Source: Lewinella sp. W8 (lineage in GTDB: Bacteria > Bacteroidota > Bacteroidia > Chitinophagales > Saprospiraceae). Taken from it: a stretch of DNA of 64,000 nucleotides. A model generated the notes under the pieces. That model was not told the origin of the DNA. It saw only the letters and a program-made list of their open reading frames with translations, and did no database searches. Below, piece after piece: positions 4,718 to 21,477 of the stretch. The stretch is taken from contig NZ_SNAQ03000005.1 of assembly GCF_004375085.3 (NCBI RefSeq), positions 1 through 64,000 of the forward strand, read 5' to 3'. Every line of letters starts with the position of its first letter. Position 1 is the first letter of the stretch. Both the position numbers and the translations under genes were made by a program.

Positions 4718-5937
4718 CAATCGTGGTCATCAGACTCTGATATCCGGTCCAGCAGGGAAACAATCCTGCTCCGCTCCCGACTCGAAACGTGGGTGTAAAT
4801 CTCGGTAGTCTCACTACTGGCGTGACCCAGTAATTCCTGAATGTGTCGTAAACTCACTCCCTGCTCCAGCAGATGCGTGGCGTAGCTGTGCCTGAGGGTA
4901 TGGACCGTGGCATAGGGATTAACTCCGCTTTTCTTCACCGCACGTTTGAATAGTGCCTGCACACTACGTACCGAATACTGACCACCCTGCTGGCCTTCAA
5001 AAAGCCAGTAATCGGGACGGTATTCCGCATAATAGAGTCTAAGCTCGGACAATAGGCTCTTGGGCAGCGTCGTATACCGGTCTTTCTTCCCCTTTGCGTC
5101 GTGCACGAAAATCTGCATCCGATCAGAATTGATATCTACGAGCCGCAAACTGACTACCTCCGAAAGACGCAGTCCTCCACCGTAAATAATTTTTAATATA
5201 CAACGGTGTTTAAGGTTCTCTACGGCACCGAATAACCGCTCTATTTCCTCCACGCTCAATACCTTGGGTAAGGACCGACGTTTCTTTGGGCGTAACTGAT
5301 AAAATACCTTTTCCCTGCCTTCAATTTGCTCTAACCAAAACTTCAGTGCATTCAGGAGTTGGTTTTGGGTAGACTCCGAAAAGTTACCCTCTGCCGCACG
5401 GGAGATCACGTAAGTACGAATCAATTCATTGTTGACCTCCTCCACCGCATGATGCGGATGGTCCAGGAAAAAACGACGTAAGTAACTCAGATAACTCTTC
5501 ACCGTCCGCCAACTGTACCGCTGCACCCGCAGCTGCTCTTCGGTGCGGTGTAGGGCCTCCTCCCAGTGTTTGGTCAACGGAGTGGTGGATACCCTCCCGG
5601 AAGGCTGCGGTGGCTGGCTCCGCTGATCCACCGTACGTGGCGGGGAACTTCCCCGGCTGCTGGCATACTGGCGGGGACGGTACGACCAATCCAGACAGCC
5701 CGGCCCGAAGATGGCTTCGAACTGACGTTGCACCTGCGCGACGGCGCCCCCTTTCTGATCCCTCCTCCCGGCAACTGCGTCAGATACGGGCATCGTCCAC
5801 GACCGCAGGGTGGAATCAAAGGAAACACCCGGAAGCGCGCGGGTGCGCTCGTAAAAGTTCTCGAGGTAGCCCCGGGGCTTGAAGACCAGCACCTCCCTAC
5901 CCCGCCAGTGCATGCGGGTGATCCAAATTCGTACCAT
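4717..5937 (-). CDS. Tyrosine recombinase / site-specific integrase (XerC/D-like)
   Basis: From the longest reading (start at 5970) the catalytic set is complete: Arg268 (GGGLRLSE), Lys in DAKGKKDR (290-297), HTLRH (His357, Arg360), LGH (His383) and Tyr392 (EIYTHV). A SAM-like core-binding domain spans about 133-215. An extra N-terminal domain of about 100 residues and a Pro/Ser-rich linker precede it. The insertion typical of IntI integron integrases between the Lys and the HxxR box is not visible, so it groups with Xer-like enzymes. I favour the ATG at 5937 (MVRIWITRMHW); an ATG at 5970 is also in frame. Unlike the cargo genes it has host-like GC content. It reads toward the repeat-bounded cargo, with motif copies at its own stop codon, and is the likely mover of the island. 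Confidence 0.9.
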   Translation of the reverse strand: MVRIWITRMHWRGREVLVFKPRGYLENFYERTRALPGVSFDSTLRSWTMPVSDAVAGRRDQKGGAVAQVQRQFEAIFGPGCLDWSYRPRQYASSRGSSPPRTVDQRSQPPQPSGRVSTTPLTKHWEEALHRTEEQLRVQRYSWRTVKSYLSYLRRFFLDHPHHAVEEVNNELIRTYVISRAAEGNFSESTQNQLLNALKFWLEQIEGREKVFYQLRPKKRRSLPKVLSVEEIERLFGAVENLKHRCILKIIYGGGLRLSEVVSLRLVDINSDRMQIFVHDAKGKKDRYTTLPKSLLSELRLYYAEYRPDYWLFEGQQGGQYSVRSVQALFKRAVKKSGVNPYATVHTLRHSYATHLLEQGVSLRHIQELLGHASSETTEIYTHVSSRERSRIVSLLDRISESDDHD

Positions 5938-17713: not shown

Positions 17714-18370
17714 GTGAAAAAAATTGACATTCAGGACAGCCACCGGCGCAAGCATTTTGATTTCTTCCGTCGGATGGATCAACCCCACTTTGGCATCACC
17801 GCCGAAGTGGACATCACGGAGTTTCTGGACGTCGTCCGCCAATCCGCCCGGCTCCGCTTTACGCCGGCCATCGTGTACCTCATCTCACGTACGGCCCACG
17901 AACTGCGCCCCTTCCGATGGCGGATTCGGGGCGAAGAAGTGGTGGAGCACGAGATGGTGCGCCCCAGTTTCACCGTGCCCACGGCCGTGTCGGACGTCTT
18001 CAGTTTCTGTACGGTTGATTACGACGAGGATCCCGAAATCTTTCACGACCGGGCCGTGGCCATCATGGAGGAGATGAAGCACAATCCCAGCTTGGAGGAC
18101 GAGGAGCACGCGGACAACTACTTGTTTCTGTCCGCCTTCCCGTGGGCGTCCTTCACCAACGTCTTTCACGCCATGCACTATTCGCCGACCGCAGACAGCG
18201 TCCCGCGGATGGTCTGGGGCAAGTACCATAAGGTTGGCGACCGGGTGATGATGCCCCTGGCCGTACAGGCCCACCACGCCGTGGTGGACGGGAGTGACCT
18301 GGGACGGTATTATCAGACAATTCAGCGGCATTTGCGACACGCAGCCGAAATTTTCGAAAATTTTAGCTGA
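17714..18370 (+). CDS. Chloramphenicol acetyltransferase-like protein (CatA family)
   Basis: The 218-aa length is normal for CatA-type trimeric acetyltransferases. The catalytic motif HHxxxDG is present near the C terminus (QAHHAVVDGSDLGRY), as are the N-terminal RRKHFDFF block, equivalent to RKEHFEAF in CAT, and the central FTVPTAVSDVFSF. The family uses acetyl-CoA to acetylate a hydroxyl; many chromosomal Bacteroidota members are not proven to act on chloramphenicol. The start is a GTG at 17714. There are no resistance-cassette features nearby, so I treat it as a chromosomal relative rather than a mobile resistance gene. Confidence 0.88.
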   Translation: MKKIDIQDSHRRKHFDFFRRMDQPHFGITAEVDITEFLDVVRQSARLRFTPAIVYLISRTAHELRPFRWRIRGEEVVEHEMVRPSFTVPTAVSDVFSFCTVDYDEDPEIFHDRAVAIMEEMKHNPSLEDEEHADNYLFLSAFPWASFTNVFHAMHYSPTADSVPRMVWGKYHKVGDRVMMPLAVQAHHAVVDGSDLGRYYQTIQRHLRHAAEIFENFS

Positions 18371-18527: not shown

Positions 18528-18558
18528 TTTGAAAATCAGTGGGTTCGACCTAACTTTG
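18528..18558 (+). promoter_or_regulatory. Bacteroidota-type promoter (TTTG-N19-TAACTTTG)
   Basis: TTTG at 18528-18531 and TAACTTTG at 18551-18558 are separated by exactly 19 nt, matching the primary sigma consensus of Bacteroidota. It lies 71 nt before the ATG at 18630 and should drive the CBM48/HhH gene. Confidence 0.75.
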
Positions 18559-18629
18559 TGTAAGCATTTTACGTTAGTGTATTATCCACACTAACAAAAC
18601 ACTGCTTTTCACCACACAAGCGACATATT

Positions 18630-19328
18630 ATGATCAAGAAGTCATACGTCAAGACCAAGAAGCAATACAAGGTCACCTTTGAACTGCCCACCGAAATGGT
18701 TGGAAAAGGCCGCGATGTGCGCGTGCTGGCCAACTTTAACAACTGGAGCTGGGACGGTGGTCTGGCCATGACCAACGGCAAAGGCACCTACAAGGCTACC
18801 GCCGAGCTGCCCGCCGGTCACTACCAGTTCCGTTACCTCATTGACGGTTGGGACTGGAAAAACGACGAGGACGCCGAGGCCTACACCGACAGCGGCTACG
18901 GCACGCTGAACTGCTGCTTCGCCCTGGACGCCGTTGCGGCTCCCGAGAAGAAGCAGGCTCCCGCCAAAAAGGCTGCGGCCAAGAAGCCCGCTGCTAAGAA
19001 GGCTGCGGCTAAAAAGCCCGCCGCCAAGAAGGCCACGGCCAAAAAAGCTGCCCCCAAGAAGGCGGCCGCCAAGAAAGCTGACGATCTGAAGAAGATCGAA
19101 GGCATTGGACCCAAGATTGCCGGTCTGCTGAACGAGGCGGGCATCTCCACCTTCGCCCAGCTGGCCAAAGCTTCCCCCAAGAAGCTGGCCGACGTATTGC
19201 AGGCCGCCGGAGCCCGTTTCCGTCTGGCCAAGCCCGACACCTGGCAGGAGCAGGCCAAACTGGCCGCTGCCGGAAAAGACGCTGAACTCAAGAAGCTCCA
19301 GGACGAGCTGAAGGGCGGCGTACGCTAA
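18630..19328 (+). CDS. CBM48 - histone H1-like linker - HhH domain protein
   Basis: Three regions make up 232 aa. Residues about 10-95 form a CBM48/AMPK-type glycogen-binding domain (VRVLANFNNWSWDGG, GHYQFRYLIDGWDW). Residues about 109-150 are an almost pure Lys/Ala/Pro tract (KKPAAKKAAAKK repeats) like bacterial histone H1-type tails. The rest is a helix-hairpin-helix module (LKKIEGIGPKIAGLLNEAGI) of the sort seen after ribosomal L21 or in DNA-binding fusions. The next gene is glycogen branching enzyme, so a role tied to glycogen is likely; the basic tail and HhH suggest nucleic-acid contact. I know no studied example. A consensus promoter lies upstream and a terminator downstream. Confidence 0.85.
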   Translation: MIKKSYVKTKKQYKVTFELPTEMVGKGRDVRVLANFNNWSWDGGLAMTNGKGTYKATAELPAGHYQFRYLIDGWDWKNDEDAEAYTDSGYGTLNCCFALDAVAAPEKKQAPAKKAAAKKPAAKKAAAKKPAAKKATAKKAAPKKAAAKKADDLKKIEGIGPKIAGLLNEAGISTFAQLAKASPKKLADVLQAAGARFRLAKPDTWQEQAKLAAAGKDAELKKLQDELKGGVR

Positions 19329-19347
19329 TTACCCCATGAACGATCAA

Positions 19348-19384
19348 GGCGCTTTCCCGGCTCTCCGGGGAGGCGTCTTTTTTT
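19348..19384 (+). terminator. Probable rho-independent terminator
   Basis: GGCGC...CCCGG pairs with CCGGG...GCGTC across a short CTCT loop, with an interior mismatch, and is followed by a T-tract at about 19377-19384. It separates the CBM48/HhH gene from glgB. Confidence 0.6.
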
Positions 19385-19563
19385 ATGCCCATTTGCCAGA
19401 GGATGCCGTGAATTGGTGAACAAGCCCCAATTTCGGTCCTCCATCACGTCGGACTTTTGTGTTAAAAATTCTGTCCCCCCAGGAAACATATTTTAGGCCG
19501 ACGCTTGTTACTTTTACCAATTCCACGCGGCAGCTGCCGCCAATGAGAATTAAAGTCCCCACC

Positions 19564-21477
19564 ATGAGTGCCTCAACCGCCGTTACCGCCCATTCCCTCT
19601 TCACCGATTACGACATCAGCCTGTTTCGCGCCGGAAAGAACTTCCGGATCTACGACAAGCTGGGCAGTCACGTCATTGAAGTAGACGGCAAGCGCGGCAC
19701 CTATTTTGCCGTCTGGGCCCCCAGCGCAAAAAAGGTGAGCGTAATCGGTGATTTCAACGGTTGGAACCGCAGCGCCCACCCCCTGAATGCCCGCTGGGAC
19801 AGCAGTGGTATCTGGGAAGGCTTTATTGAAGGACTGGAAAACGGCACGGTTTACAAGTACGCCGTTGACGCTCAGGATGGTCGCGCCCTGGAAAAGGGTG
19901 ACCCCTACGCCCGCCTCTGGGAAACTCCGCCGAAAACGGCCAGCGTGGTCTGGGACACCTATTACGAATGGGAGGATAAGGACTGGATGGACAAACGGGG
20001 CGAGCACAACGCCATCGACCGTCCCTACTCCGTCTACGAGGTACACCTCGGCTCCTGGAAGAAGCCCAAGGGAGACGAGAGCCTGAGTTACCGGGAGCTG
20101 GCCACGGAACTGGTCGACTACGTCAAGAAAATGAACTTCACCCACGTGGAGTTCCTGCCCGTCATGGAGCATCCCTACTTTCCGAGTTGGGGCTACCAGA
20201 TCACGGGGTACTTCGCTCCTTCCAGCCGCTTCGGTGGCCCGCAGGACTTCATGTACCTCTGCGACAAACTCCACCAGGCCGGCATCGGGATCATCCTCGA
20301 CTGGGTGCCCAGCCACTTCCCCAACGACGCCCACGGTCTGGCGGACTTCGACGGTACCCACCTCTACGACCACGCCGATCCGCGCAAGGGTTTCCACCCC
20401 GACTGGAAATCTGCCATCTTCAACTATGGCCGCAATGAGGTCCGGTCCTTCCTGATCTCCAACGCCCTGTTCTGGCTGGATCGCTACCACATCGACGGAC
20501 TGCGCGTGGACGCGGTCGCCTCCATGCTCTACCTGGACTACAGCCGTAAGGAGGGTGAGTGGATCCCCAACCAGTACGGCGGCAACGAAAACCTGGAGGC
20601 CATTTCCTTCCTGCGGGAATTCAACGAAACGGTCTTCCGGGAATACCCCGACACCATGACCATCGCTGAGGAATCCACCGCCTTCAGTGGCGTTTCCCGC
20701 CCGACCTACGTCGGCGGACTGGGCTTCGGCCAAAAATGGATGATGGGCTGGATGCACGACACCCTGGGGTACTTCAAGCACGACCCCATCCACCGCAGCT
20801 ACCACCACGGAGAAGTTACCTTCAGCCTCGTCTACGCCTTCAGCGAGAACTTCATGCTCCCGCTGAGCCACGATGAGGTGGTGCACGGCAAGGGGCCGCT
20901 GATTGACCGGATGCCCGGAGACGAATGGCAACGCTTTGCCAACATGCGGGCCATGTACGGCTACATGTTTACCCACCCCGGCAGCCAGTTGCTGTTCATG
21001 GGCGGCGAATTCGGGCAAACCTCGGAGTGGAGCATCGAACGCGGCATCGACTGGAGCCTCACCGAATTCACGCCCCACGCGAGTCTGCAAACCTTCGTAG
21101 CGGACCTGAACAAGCTCTACCGGGAAACCACGGCCCTGTTCCAACTGGCTTACGACCCGAAGGGCTTTGAGTGGATCGACGTGGGAGACCACCAAAACAG
21201 CGTACTGACCTACCTCCGCCGGGGTAAAAAGGCCGATGACTTTGTGGTGGTGGTGAATAACTTCACGCCCGCTCCTCGTCACCACTACCGCGTGGGTGTC
21301 CCCGCTGACGGCACTTACGAGGTGCTCATCAATAGCGACGAAGATCAGTACGGCGGAACGGGTAACTACGCCGACAAAACCTTCAAGGCCGTAGAGTCCG
21401 AATGGAACGGACGCCCCTACCACATTGAGTTGACGCTTCCCCCGCTGGCGACGGTTATCCTGAAGCCGAAGGGCTAG
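19564..21477 (+). CDS. glgB: 1,4-alpha-glucan branching enzyme GlgB
   Basis: About 637 aa. An N-terminal CBM48 domain (FAVWAPSAKKVSVIGDFNGW) is followed by a GH13 catalytic barrel: VEFLPVMEHP, the nucleophile region GLRVDAVASMLYLDYSR, the acid/base Glu in TIAEESTAFSG and HDEVVHGKG. A C-terminal all-beta domain closes it. The enzyme moves alpha-1,4 glucan segments to make alpha-1,6 branches in glycogen. The open frame reaches back to 19459 (GTG), but a promoter-like TTACTTTTACC at 19508-19518 argues for a later start. ATG 19564 (MSASTAVTAHSLF) is chosen; ATG 19543 is the alternative. It sits just after a CBM48/HhH protein. Confidence 0.95.
   Translation: MSASTAVTAHSLFTDYDISLFRAGKNFRIYDKLGSHVIEVDGKRGTYFAVWAPSAKKVSVIGDFNGWNRSAHPLNARWDSSGIWEGFIEGLENGTVYKYAVDAQDGRALEKGDPYARLWETPPKTASVVWDTYYEWEDKDWMDKRGEHNAIDRPYSVYEVHLGSWKKPKGDESLSYRELATELVDYVKKMNFTHVEFLPVMEHPYFPSWGYQITGYFAPSSRFGGPQDFMYLCDKLHQAGIGIILDWVPSHFPNDAHGLADFDGTHLYDHADPRKGFHPDWKSAIFNYGRNEVRSFLISNALFWLDRYHIDGLRVDAVASMLYLDYSRKEGEWIPNQYGGNENLEAISFLREFNETVFREYPDTMTIAEESTAFSGVSRPTYVGGLGFGQKWMMGWMHDTLGYFKHDPIHRSYHHGEVTFSLVYAFSENFMLPLSHDEVVHGKGPLIDRMPGDEWQRFANMRAMYGYMFTHPGSQLLFMGGEFGQTSEWSIERGIDWSLTEFTPHASLQTFVADLNKLYRETTALFQLAYDPKGFEWIDVGDHQNSVLTYLRRGKKADDFVVVVNNFTPAPRHHYRVGVPADGTYEVLINSDEDQYGGTGNYADKTFKAVESEWNGRPYHIELTLPPLATVILKPKG

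Follow-up and report, generated by a model that had tools for sequence, protein, structure and literature searches.

Proteins that position PHB/PHA, polyphosphate, and carboxysomes by binding the nucleoid have been described. PhaH of Caulobacter crescentus reportedly uses its helix-hairpin-helix (HhH) to bind DNA and to spread PHB granules over the nucleoid, and PhaM and PhaF reportedly bind DNA and spread these granules by means of histone-like domains (available text of PMC13052382); loss of the KPAA tail of AlgP disturbs the positioning of polyphosphate granules (available text of PMC9239181); and for the tails of PhaF, PhaM, and AlgP, DNA binding and a role in spacing granules are reported (PMC9239181, PMC13052382). 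The available text of the 2025 organelle-positioning review (PMC13052382) does not contain the word "glycogen", and our literature searches, which were not exhaustive, found no glycogen-nucleoid tether.

We analyzed a window of 64,000 nucleotides from Lewinella sp. W8 (GCF_004375085.3, contig NZ_SNAQ03000005.1, forward-strand positions 1-64,000). An open reading frame with an ATG start (18630-19328, + strand, 232 aa) encodes a fusion protein that consists, in order, of an AMPK-beta-type glycogen-binding domain (CBM48-like), a Lys/Ala/Pro (K/A/P) tract, and a C-terminal HhH; the next gene is glgB. The features of the locus are as follows.

18528..18558, + strand: Bacteroidota-type promoter TTTG-N19-TAACTTTG, read in the sequence
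18573..18595, + strand: inverted repeat GTTAGTGT-N7-ACACTAAC, after the promoter and ahead of the start codon
18630..18929, + strand: AMPK-beta-type glycogen-binding domain, residues 1-100 (Pfam AMPK1_CBM, PDB AMPK beta chains, contact positions)
18942..19079, + strand: histone-H1-like Lys/Ala/Pro tract, residues 105-150 (composition; predicted disordered)
19080..19325, + strand: HhH module, residues 151-232 (Pfam HHH_5, match to the PhaH C-terminus, conservation, model)
19346..19384, + strand: intrinsic terminator separating the fusion gene from glgB (15-pair stem-loop and T run)
19543..21477, + strand (ORF open from 19459): glgB, 1,4-alpha-glucan branching enzyme (Pfam Alpha-amylase, CBM_48, Alpha-amylase_C)

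Domains of the fusion protein

The original prediction of an odd domain mix beside glgB is borne out by the Pfam domains, by the basic tract, and by relatives in which both domains occur together, counted in 101 genomes from the loci examined; this number is not a prevalence figure since these loci were selected by matching. Pfam AMPK1_CBM (PF16561) covers residues 25-94 (3.1e-9, 37.4 bits versus a cut-off of 26.8); Pfam CBM_48 (PF02922) does not match the fusion ORF, although it does match glgB on the same contig (19657-19911). AMPK beta glycogen-binding domains are the top PDB sequence matches of the N-terminal domain (best 4.3e-8) and AMPK beta also fills the first Foldseek rows (1z0m_B at E 2.4e-4), while VIA-align returned beta-sandwiches at Z 7.5-8.5, an unspecific result in which CBM48 and AMPK entries are mixed with unrelated ones. 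The predicted carbohydrate contacts W39, R68, W76, and N94, which align with the glucan-contact residues W100, K126, W133, and N150 of AMPK beta1, are invariant by sequence alignment in all 101 fusions, so that a CBM48 devoid of carbohydrate-binding residues, the outcome named as fatal to the original prediction, did not appear; R68 is a K to R change relative to K126, and the counterpart of AMPK beta1 L146 is a Y. This assignment rests on sequence alignment because the CBM part of the full-length structure model is weak (residues 74-92 at pLDDT < 50, with coverage by one sequence only).

The tract, which had been estimated at about 42 residues, measures 46 (18 K, 20 A, 5 P, 1 T, 1 E, and neither R nor D). 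Residues 101-150 have a net charge of +17, nearly all of residues 101-148 have pLDDT < 50 in the structure model, and the linker is net positive in 99/101 fusions. NCBIfam H1-like models match the tract weakly (0.00019 and 0.032), both under cut-off.

The HhH is matched by Pfam HHH_5 at residues 151-189 (9.3e-9, 36.1 bits versus a cut-off of 27), DUF4332 matches residues 129-201 (4.4e-7, over the curated Pfam cut-offs), and the HhH model has a mean pLDDT of 85. The conservation analysis places the hairpin at E157-G158-x-G160-P161-K162, with W205 and Q208 also noted; E157, G158, and G160 are found in 101/101 fusions and K162 in 100/101. The HhH alone matches the C-terminal end of the NCBIfam PhaH profile (NF045508, positions 170-232 of 234, 1.2e-10), and the HhH with most of the K/A/P tract matches it at 6.1e-13; since only the C-terminal part matches, the fusion protein as a whole scores 49.5 bits versus the family cut-off of 250. 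Foldseek with the HhH model gave top rows that include RadA, NusA, and DNA polymerases, none of them a confident match (best E 0.66). Chance low complexity is ruled out, as 17/17 genus genomes keep the fusion and the HhH matches even without the K/A/P tract. Lewinella sp. W8 also encodes a 260-aa relative in which an HhH-like end, uncalled by Pfam, accompanies AT-hook-like GPGRPK repeats.

Distribution of the fusion and linkage to glgB

The survey for the same fusion that had been suggested earlier reveals conservation, with the fusion present in all 17 sampled genomes of the genus as well as in the 101 genomes mentioned above. In the family, the CBM occurs in 153/298 genomes; among the matches listed, 122 such genomes comprise 79 with the fusion, 12 with a CBM and K/A/P tail but no HhH, and 31 with neither, most of these 31 having been judged from open-frame length alone. 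One of the 31 (G151) is borderline, with a K-rich tail that falls under the 50% K/A/P cut. Phylum-wide, the matches listed are mostly frames of about 100-130 aa. Because of these short frames and the 31/122 genomes with neither form of tail, we conclude that the tail is dispensable for the basic role of the CBM protein. A frameshift artefact as the origin of the 12 K/A/P-only forms was rejected, as no HhH is encoded in three frames over the 1.26-1.5 kb downstream. In one genome (G204), a TAG codon lies at the HhH boundary, and this form may be a recent truncation. Judged from genus membership, the HhH has probably been gained or lost repeatedly, since genera g9, g12, g17, and g22 each contain both the fusion and the K/A/P-only form.

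The start of glgB is likelier to be an in-frame ATG at 19543 or 19564 than a GTG. Throughout the genus, glgB lies downstream of the fusion (17/17, source genome counted). In the family sample, glgB is found i) within 4 kb of 22/62 fusions, always downstream on the same strand (22/22), but not within this distance in the other 40/62 fusion genomes with a listed glgB, some of which have short contigs; ii) within 4 kb of 4/10 K/A/P-only forms, again always downstream on the same strand (4/4); and iii) within 4 kb of 9/24 other CBM forms, where 7/9 are downstream on the same strand. A glgB match is present in 137/153 genomes with the CBM versus 51/145 without it (Fisher 1.7e-23, in a test that ignores kinship and incomplete genomes), and is missing at 1e-80 from 9/80 of the family-sample genomes that have the fusion; a single genus (g197) accounts for five of these. 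Lewinella sp. W8 also carries one match each of the GT5 synthase type and the glycogen-phosphorylase type, together with NTP-transferases. Opposite-strand ORFs that overlap the fusion gene and glgB form large clusters, which were left out as shadows; apart from glgB and an upstream CAT-like gene, the remaining neighbor clusters include at most 12 genomes each. Ten representatives of recurrent neighbors (SnoaL-like, sortilin-like, hydrolase, FG-GAP, arginase, PALP, formyltransferase, and TPR by Pfam, with two unmatched) do not indicate an alternative function.

Promoter, leader repeat, and terminator

The consensus promoter and the separate terminator originally predicted for the fusion gene are both found. 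The pattern TTTG-N19-TAACTTTG, which matches the Bacteroidota promoter consensus, occurs upstream of 10/17 genus orthologues versus 0.055 expected from base-shuffled controls, and the terminator is a 15-pair stem-loop with a T run whose stem is the longest among four terminator-like sites (2.4 expected by shuffling). Four sigma-70-like sites with 9-of-12 matches (0.4 expected) do not include the TTTG-N19-TAACTTTG element, and were set aside as promoters since the conserved element is of the Bacteroidota type. To judge from these sequence signals, promoter and terminator would be compatible with expression of the fusion gene independently of glgB. From the inverted repeat we infer an operator or leader hairpin; by eye, the alignment of genus upstream regions shows a similar repeat in 7/17, and the exact core occurs just twice in the 6.18 Mb genome (0 for the reversed control).

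A candidate glycogen tether, its rivals, and its relatives

Judging from sequence and by analogy, we give about even odds (roughly 0.5) to the fusion protein being a tether between glycogen granules and the nucleoid, which we consider the best explanation because of the HhH homology to PhaH and the precedents of the histone-like tails of PhaF/PhaM and AlgP. The PhaH homology of the C-terminus, and the existence in 12 genomes of a K/A/P tail without HhH, both support the originally suggested link to the nucleoid. Further points in favor are the AMPK-beta matches and invariant contact positions of the N-terminal domain, the linkage and co-occurrence with glgB, the net positive linker, and the synthase-type and phosphorylase-type matches in the genome. 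The protein would be a cytoplasmic adaptor associated with glycogen granules; the AMPK-beta-type domain would grip the outer chains of glycogen; the disordered, strongly positive tract and the HhH would bind nucleic acid non-specifically, with the chromosome as the most likely target; and nascent glycogen particles, with GlgB working on them, would thereby be anchored to the nucleoid, preventing the particles from clumping and distributing glycogen to daughter cells, in the manner reported for PhaM, PhaF, and PhaH on PHA/PHB granules and for AlgP on polyphosphate granules.

Counting against the tether are the 9/80 fusion genomes that lack a glgB match, the 40/62 in which glgB is not nearby, the CBM proteins with neither form of tail, and the absence of a confident Foldseek match for the HhH model. 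The tail, moreover, is not confined to glycogen-binding proteins. K/A/P-HhH-type tails are found on bL27 and S1 (by Pfam; seven of these tails are 56-64% identical to the fusion HhH), on bL21 and NuoE (by NCBIfam models, with ORFs read by eye), on membrane-type proteins, and according to one NCBIfam model on bS2; the tail ligand could therefore be RNA or protein. PDB homologues of the HhH include 8yy9_O (5.7e-25) and 9wqv_a (5.6e-19), those matching over the full domain being subunits of complex I and of a photosynthetic reaction centre; more weakly related entries include eL32 and the HhH repeats of NusA. All of this favors a tail that serves as a general RNA-, ribosome-, or hub-binding tag, bringing glycogen or GlgB to polysomes or a common scaffold instead of DNA. 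We think this unlikely, if worth serious attention: PhaH, whose HhH is homologous, is reported to bind DNA (available text of PMC13052382), the HhH-less K/A/P forms are similar in composition to the AlgP and PhaF tails, and the 260-aa relative in the same genome pairs its HhH-like end with AT-hook-like repeats. Our searches for literature on DUF4332 and on HhH-tailed ribosomal proteins found nothing useful.

Linkage and co-occurrence with glgB, the HhH-less K/A/P tails, the tail-less CBM paralogues that adjoin the fusion in several genomes, and an odd match of the HhH profile to the lectin tachylectin-2 (4.5e-11, via several weak stretches), which also counts against the tether, are points for a basic tail that acts within glycogen metabolism, by neutralizing glycogen phosphate, recruiting GlgB, or cross-linking particles, with nucleic acid irrelevant; this is rather improbable, as it explains neither the conserved hairpin residues of the HhH nor the same tail on proteins unrelated to glycogen. 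The identical domain set could also belong to a nucleoid protein linked to starvation, in which the CBM would act as a glycogen sensor and glycogen would release or change DNA binding, with effects on transcription or compaction. The leader inverted repeat common to several orthologues does suggest regulation of the gene, but Pfam and NCBIfam searches found no sequence-specific DNA-binding domain in the fusion protein, and we regard such a sensor as very improbable.

If the tether reading is right, bacterial glycogen gains a positioning and partition factor, and the principle of a polymer-binding head with a histone-like or HhH tail reaches a further storage polymer. More tentatively, and with some doubt, the K/A/P-HhH tail may be a transferable "nucleoid address tag" that Saprospiraceae and their relatives have added to glycogen-binding, ribosomal, and other proteins; the chromosome would then hold and partition glycogen particles as it does PHB and polyphosphate granules, and the fusion protein would be the first dedicated glycogen positioning factor in bacteria.

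The N-terminal domain of the fusion resembles AMPK beta and CBM48 in sequence (4.3e-8), top Foldseek rows, and invariant contact positions, but belongs to a bacterial protein that bears appendages and lacks a kinase subunit. The HhH module of the fusion is shared with the tails of bL27, S1, bL21, and NuoE, as well as with subunit O of the photosynthetic reaction centre, where the hosts are ribosomal or membrane-complex proteins, whereas the host domain of the fusion is of the glycogen-binding type. With PhaF, PhaM, and AlgP, as far as the available texts describe them, the fusion shares a C-terminal tract of the histone-H1-like type, which in PhaF and AlgP is rich in K/P/A, and an N-terminus that binds granules (predicted for the fusion), a likeness of composition and layout, and differs in its shorter tract, additional HhH, and carbohydrate-binding N-terminal domain. 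PhaH, on the same partial texts, likewise joins a polymer-binding N-terminus to a homologous HhH C-terminus; the PhaH N-terminus binds PHB, whereas that of the fusion protein is a glycogen-binding-type domain.

Layout and conservation of the fusion protein

The fusion gene joins an AMPK-beta-type CBM, a tract rich in Lys, Ala, and Pro (K/A/P), and a C-terminal HhH within one ORF, and the relevant features are as follows.

18528-18558, Bacteroidota-type promoter, 5′ of the fusion gene (sequence reading)
18573-18595, inverted repeat in the fusion gene leader, exact core TTAGTGT-N7-ACACTAA
18630-19328, + strand, fusion ORF, 232 aa
residues 25-94, AMPK-beta glycogen-recognition domain (Pfam AMPK1_CBM, 3.1e-9, over cut-off)
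residues 129-201, DUF4332 (Pfam, 4.4e-7)
residues 151-189, HHH_5 domain (Pfam, 9.3e-9)
19346-19384, intrinsic terminator, between the fusion gene and glgB
about 19543-21477, glgB, 3′ of the fusion gene

The domain mix of the original prediction holds, except that Pfam names the first domain AMPK1_CBM and not CBM_48; the promoter and terminator claimed for the gene are both present, and the fusion, whose conservation was to be checked, is kept among relatives. The 46 residues between CBM and HhH (18 Lys, 20 Ala, 5 Pro) are disordered in the structure model; by net charge the CBM is neutral (0), residues 101-150 carry +17, and the HhH carries +4, and inspection of the N-terminus by eye found no signal peptide.

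Searching 396 whole genomes of the order gave a hit in 17/17 genus members (among the matches listed), each with CBM and HhH on a single ORF. All fetched loci together give 101 genomes with one CBM-linker-HhH ORF apiece, of which 91 belong to the window's family, 9 to family f20, and 1 to family f12 (kinship codes, tallied by eye); linker net charge is positive in 99 of the 101. The CBM occurs in 153 of 298 genomes of the family sample, and the 122 of these with matches listed comprise 79 fusions, 12 forms with a K/A/P tail only, and 31 that are neither by the criteria used. Phylum-wide, the CBM is matched in 122 of 395 genomes and most frames among the matches listed are ~100-130 aa. CBM proteins that stand alone are thus widespread in Bacteroidota, and the tail (K/A/P tract plus HhH) is an addition in the window's family and some relatives. 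Tail-less CBM genes of ~103 aa lie directly 3′ of the fusion gene in loci L073, L085, L095, L172, L176, L181, L199, and L222-L225, forming tailed/untailed pairs, and on a MAG contig labelled Chloroflexi (L012) ~2.8 kb separates an HhH protein (1481-2044) from a CBM that stands alone (4812-5126).

In the 12 K/A/P-only genomes the CBM is followed by a K/A/P(T)-rich tail of 69-143 residues, and none of the frames in the 1.26-1.5 kb that follow contains an HhH. Because such tails occur without HhH, the basic tract is not just an HhH spacer; and because genera g9, g12, g17, and g22 hold both forms, gain or loss of the HhH appears to have happened repeatedly.

The same promoter pattern precedes 10 of the 17 genus orthologues (0.055 expected), and a GTTAGTG...CACTAA-like inverted repeat lies between promoter and start in 7 of 17 (alignment, by eye). 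The exact TTAGTGT-N7-ACACTAA, possibly a shared operator, occurs at 2 places in the whole genome: the fusion gene leader and C18:55573-55593 (contig C18, locus L231), 5′ of a 414-aa ORF that itself follows a photolyase-like ORF (reading by eye). Just 5′ of the fusion gene is a CAT-like acetyltransferase gene (17714-18370; Pfam CAT, 8.4e-36), and 17 genomes have a homologue 5′ on the same strand.

The CBM and glgB

We strongly infer that the fusion protein binds glycogen. On the glycogen side, i) the best PDB relatives of the N-domain are AMPK beta chains (4.3e-8); ii) W39, R68, W76, and N94, which align with the glucan-contact residues W100, K126, W133, and N150 of AMPK beta1, are unchanged in 101/101 fusions and kept in 50, 48, 50, and 48, respectively, of 50 other CBM ORFs; iii) glgB lies 3′ on the same strand in 17/17 genus genomes (16 relatives and the window); and iv) a glgB match is found in 137 of 153 genomes with the CBM versus 51 of 145 without (Fisher 1.7e-23, kinship ignored). 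Among family-sample genomes with both CBM and glgB in the matches listed, glgB is within the 4 kb limit of 22/62 fusions, 4/10 K/A/P-only forms, and 9/24 other CBM ORFs, and is downstream on the same strand in 22/22, 4/4, and 7/9 of these. As counter-examples, nine of 80 family-sample fusion genomes, 5 of them genus g197, have no glgB match at 1e-80 among the matches listed. Further matches in the window's own genome are of GT5 synthase type, of phosphorylase type, and to NTP-transferases.

The HhH and other bearers of the tail

Without the K/A/P tract, the HhH matches NCBIfam NuoE (1.4e-12), bL21 (1.6e-11), PhaH (1.2e-10, at the PhaH C-terminal end), and bS2 (1.1e-7). The fusion protein is not itself PhaH (whole-protein score 49.5, cut-off 250). 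In the PDB, homology across the full domain extends to subunit O of a photosynthetic reaction centre (5.7e-25) and to a subunit of complex I (5.6e-19). Matches over a shorter stretch involve the HhH regions of DNA polymerase beta, NusA, DNA polymerase IV, RadA, and topoisomerase V. All fusions share the hairpin E157-G158-x-G160, and K162 is kept in 100/101. The isolated HhH model has a mean pLDDT of 85, and Foldseek found no confident match for it (RadA first row, best E 0.66). A profile of the HhH-tail (19080-19325) scores tachylectin-2 (1tl2) at 4.5e-11, a sum of weak stretches that recur at profile positions 45-73 and likely a repeat effect; it scores a beta-propeller lectin at 0.0054.

Own-genome bearers of the tail are bL27, two proteins that each have a hydrophobic N-terminus and a pair of HhH copies, and a 260-aa protein (L104 6363-7145, own contig C8) with AT-hook-like GPGRPK repeats, K/A/P motifs, and a terminal HhH relative that Pfam does not call as HhH. 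In relatives the tail is found on S1 (Pfam), on coiled-coil proteins in which the motif IKEVEV recurs, on a 244-aa protein, and on bL21 and NuoE (ORFs read by eye). Tailed bL27 and S1 are seen at L102 6506-7228, L118 1370-2875, and L109-L111, one relative's bL27 having three HhH copies. A family member encodes a 359-aa protein (L120 1390-2469), phasin-like by eye and without a Pfam match, with a long K/A tail and HhH.

Glycogen granules and the nucleoid

By analogy with other granule proteins, we give about an even chance that the fusion protein tethers glycogen granules to the nucleoid: the head would bind glycogen, the tail would bind nucleic acid, namely DNA of the nucleoid, and granules would thereby be positioned. 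Nucleic-acid binding is moderately well indicated; a preference of the tail for DNA over RNA, and granule positioning itself, are suggested more weakly. Because ribosomal proteins, complex I, and a reaction centre also bear the tail, its ligand may instead be RNA or a shared protein, which we consider unlikely, though less so than a basic tail working within glycogen metabolism alone; a glycogen-sensing nucleoid protein seems improbable. The tether to the nucleoid is the best supported of these, because both kinds of tail, histone-like and HhH, sit on a glycogen-binding-type head beside glgB.

No glycogen tether was found in a non-exhaustive literature search on glycogen and nucleoid, nor in the excerpts of the review PMC13052382. 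According to those excerpts, the PHA/PHB granule proteins PhaM, PhaF, and PhaH bind PHB granules through the N-terminus and DNA, non-specifically, through the C-terminus, the DNA-binding part being a histone-like domain in PhaM and PhaF and HhH in PhaH; polyphosphate granules are positioned by AlgP (PMC13052382), and loss of its KPAA tail disturbs positioning (PMC9239181, in excerpt). The fusion protein unites a histone-like tail of the PhaM and PhaF kind with an HhH of the PhaH kind, on a glycogen-binding-type head.
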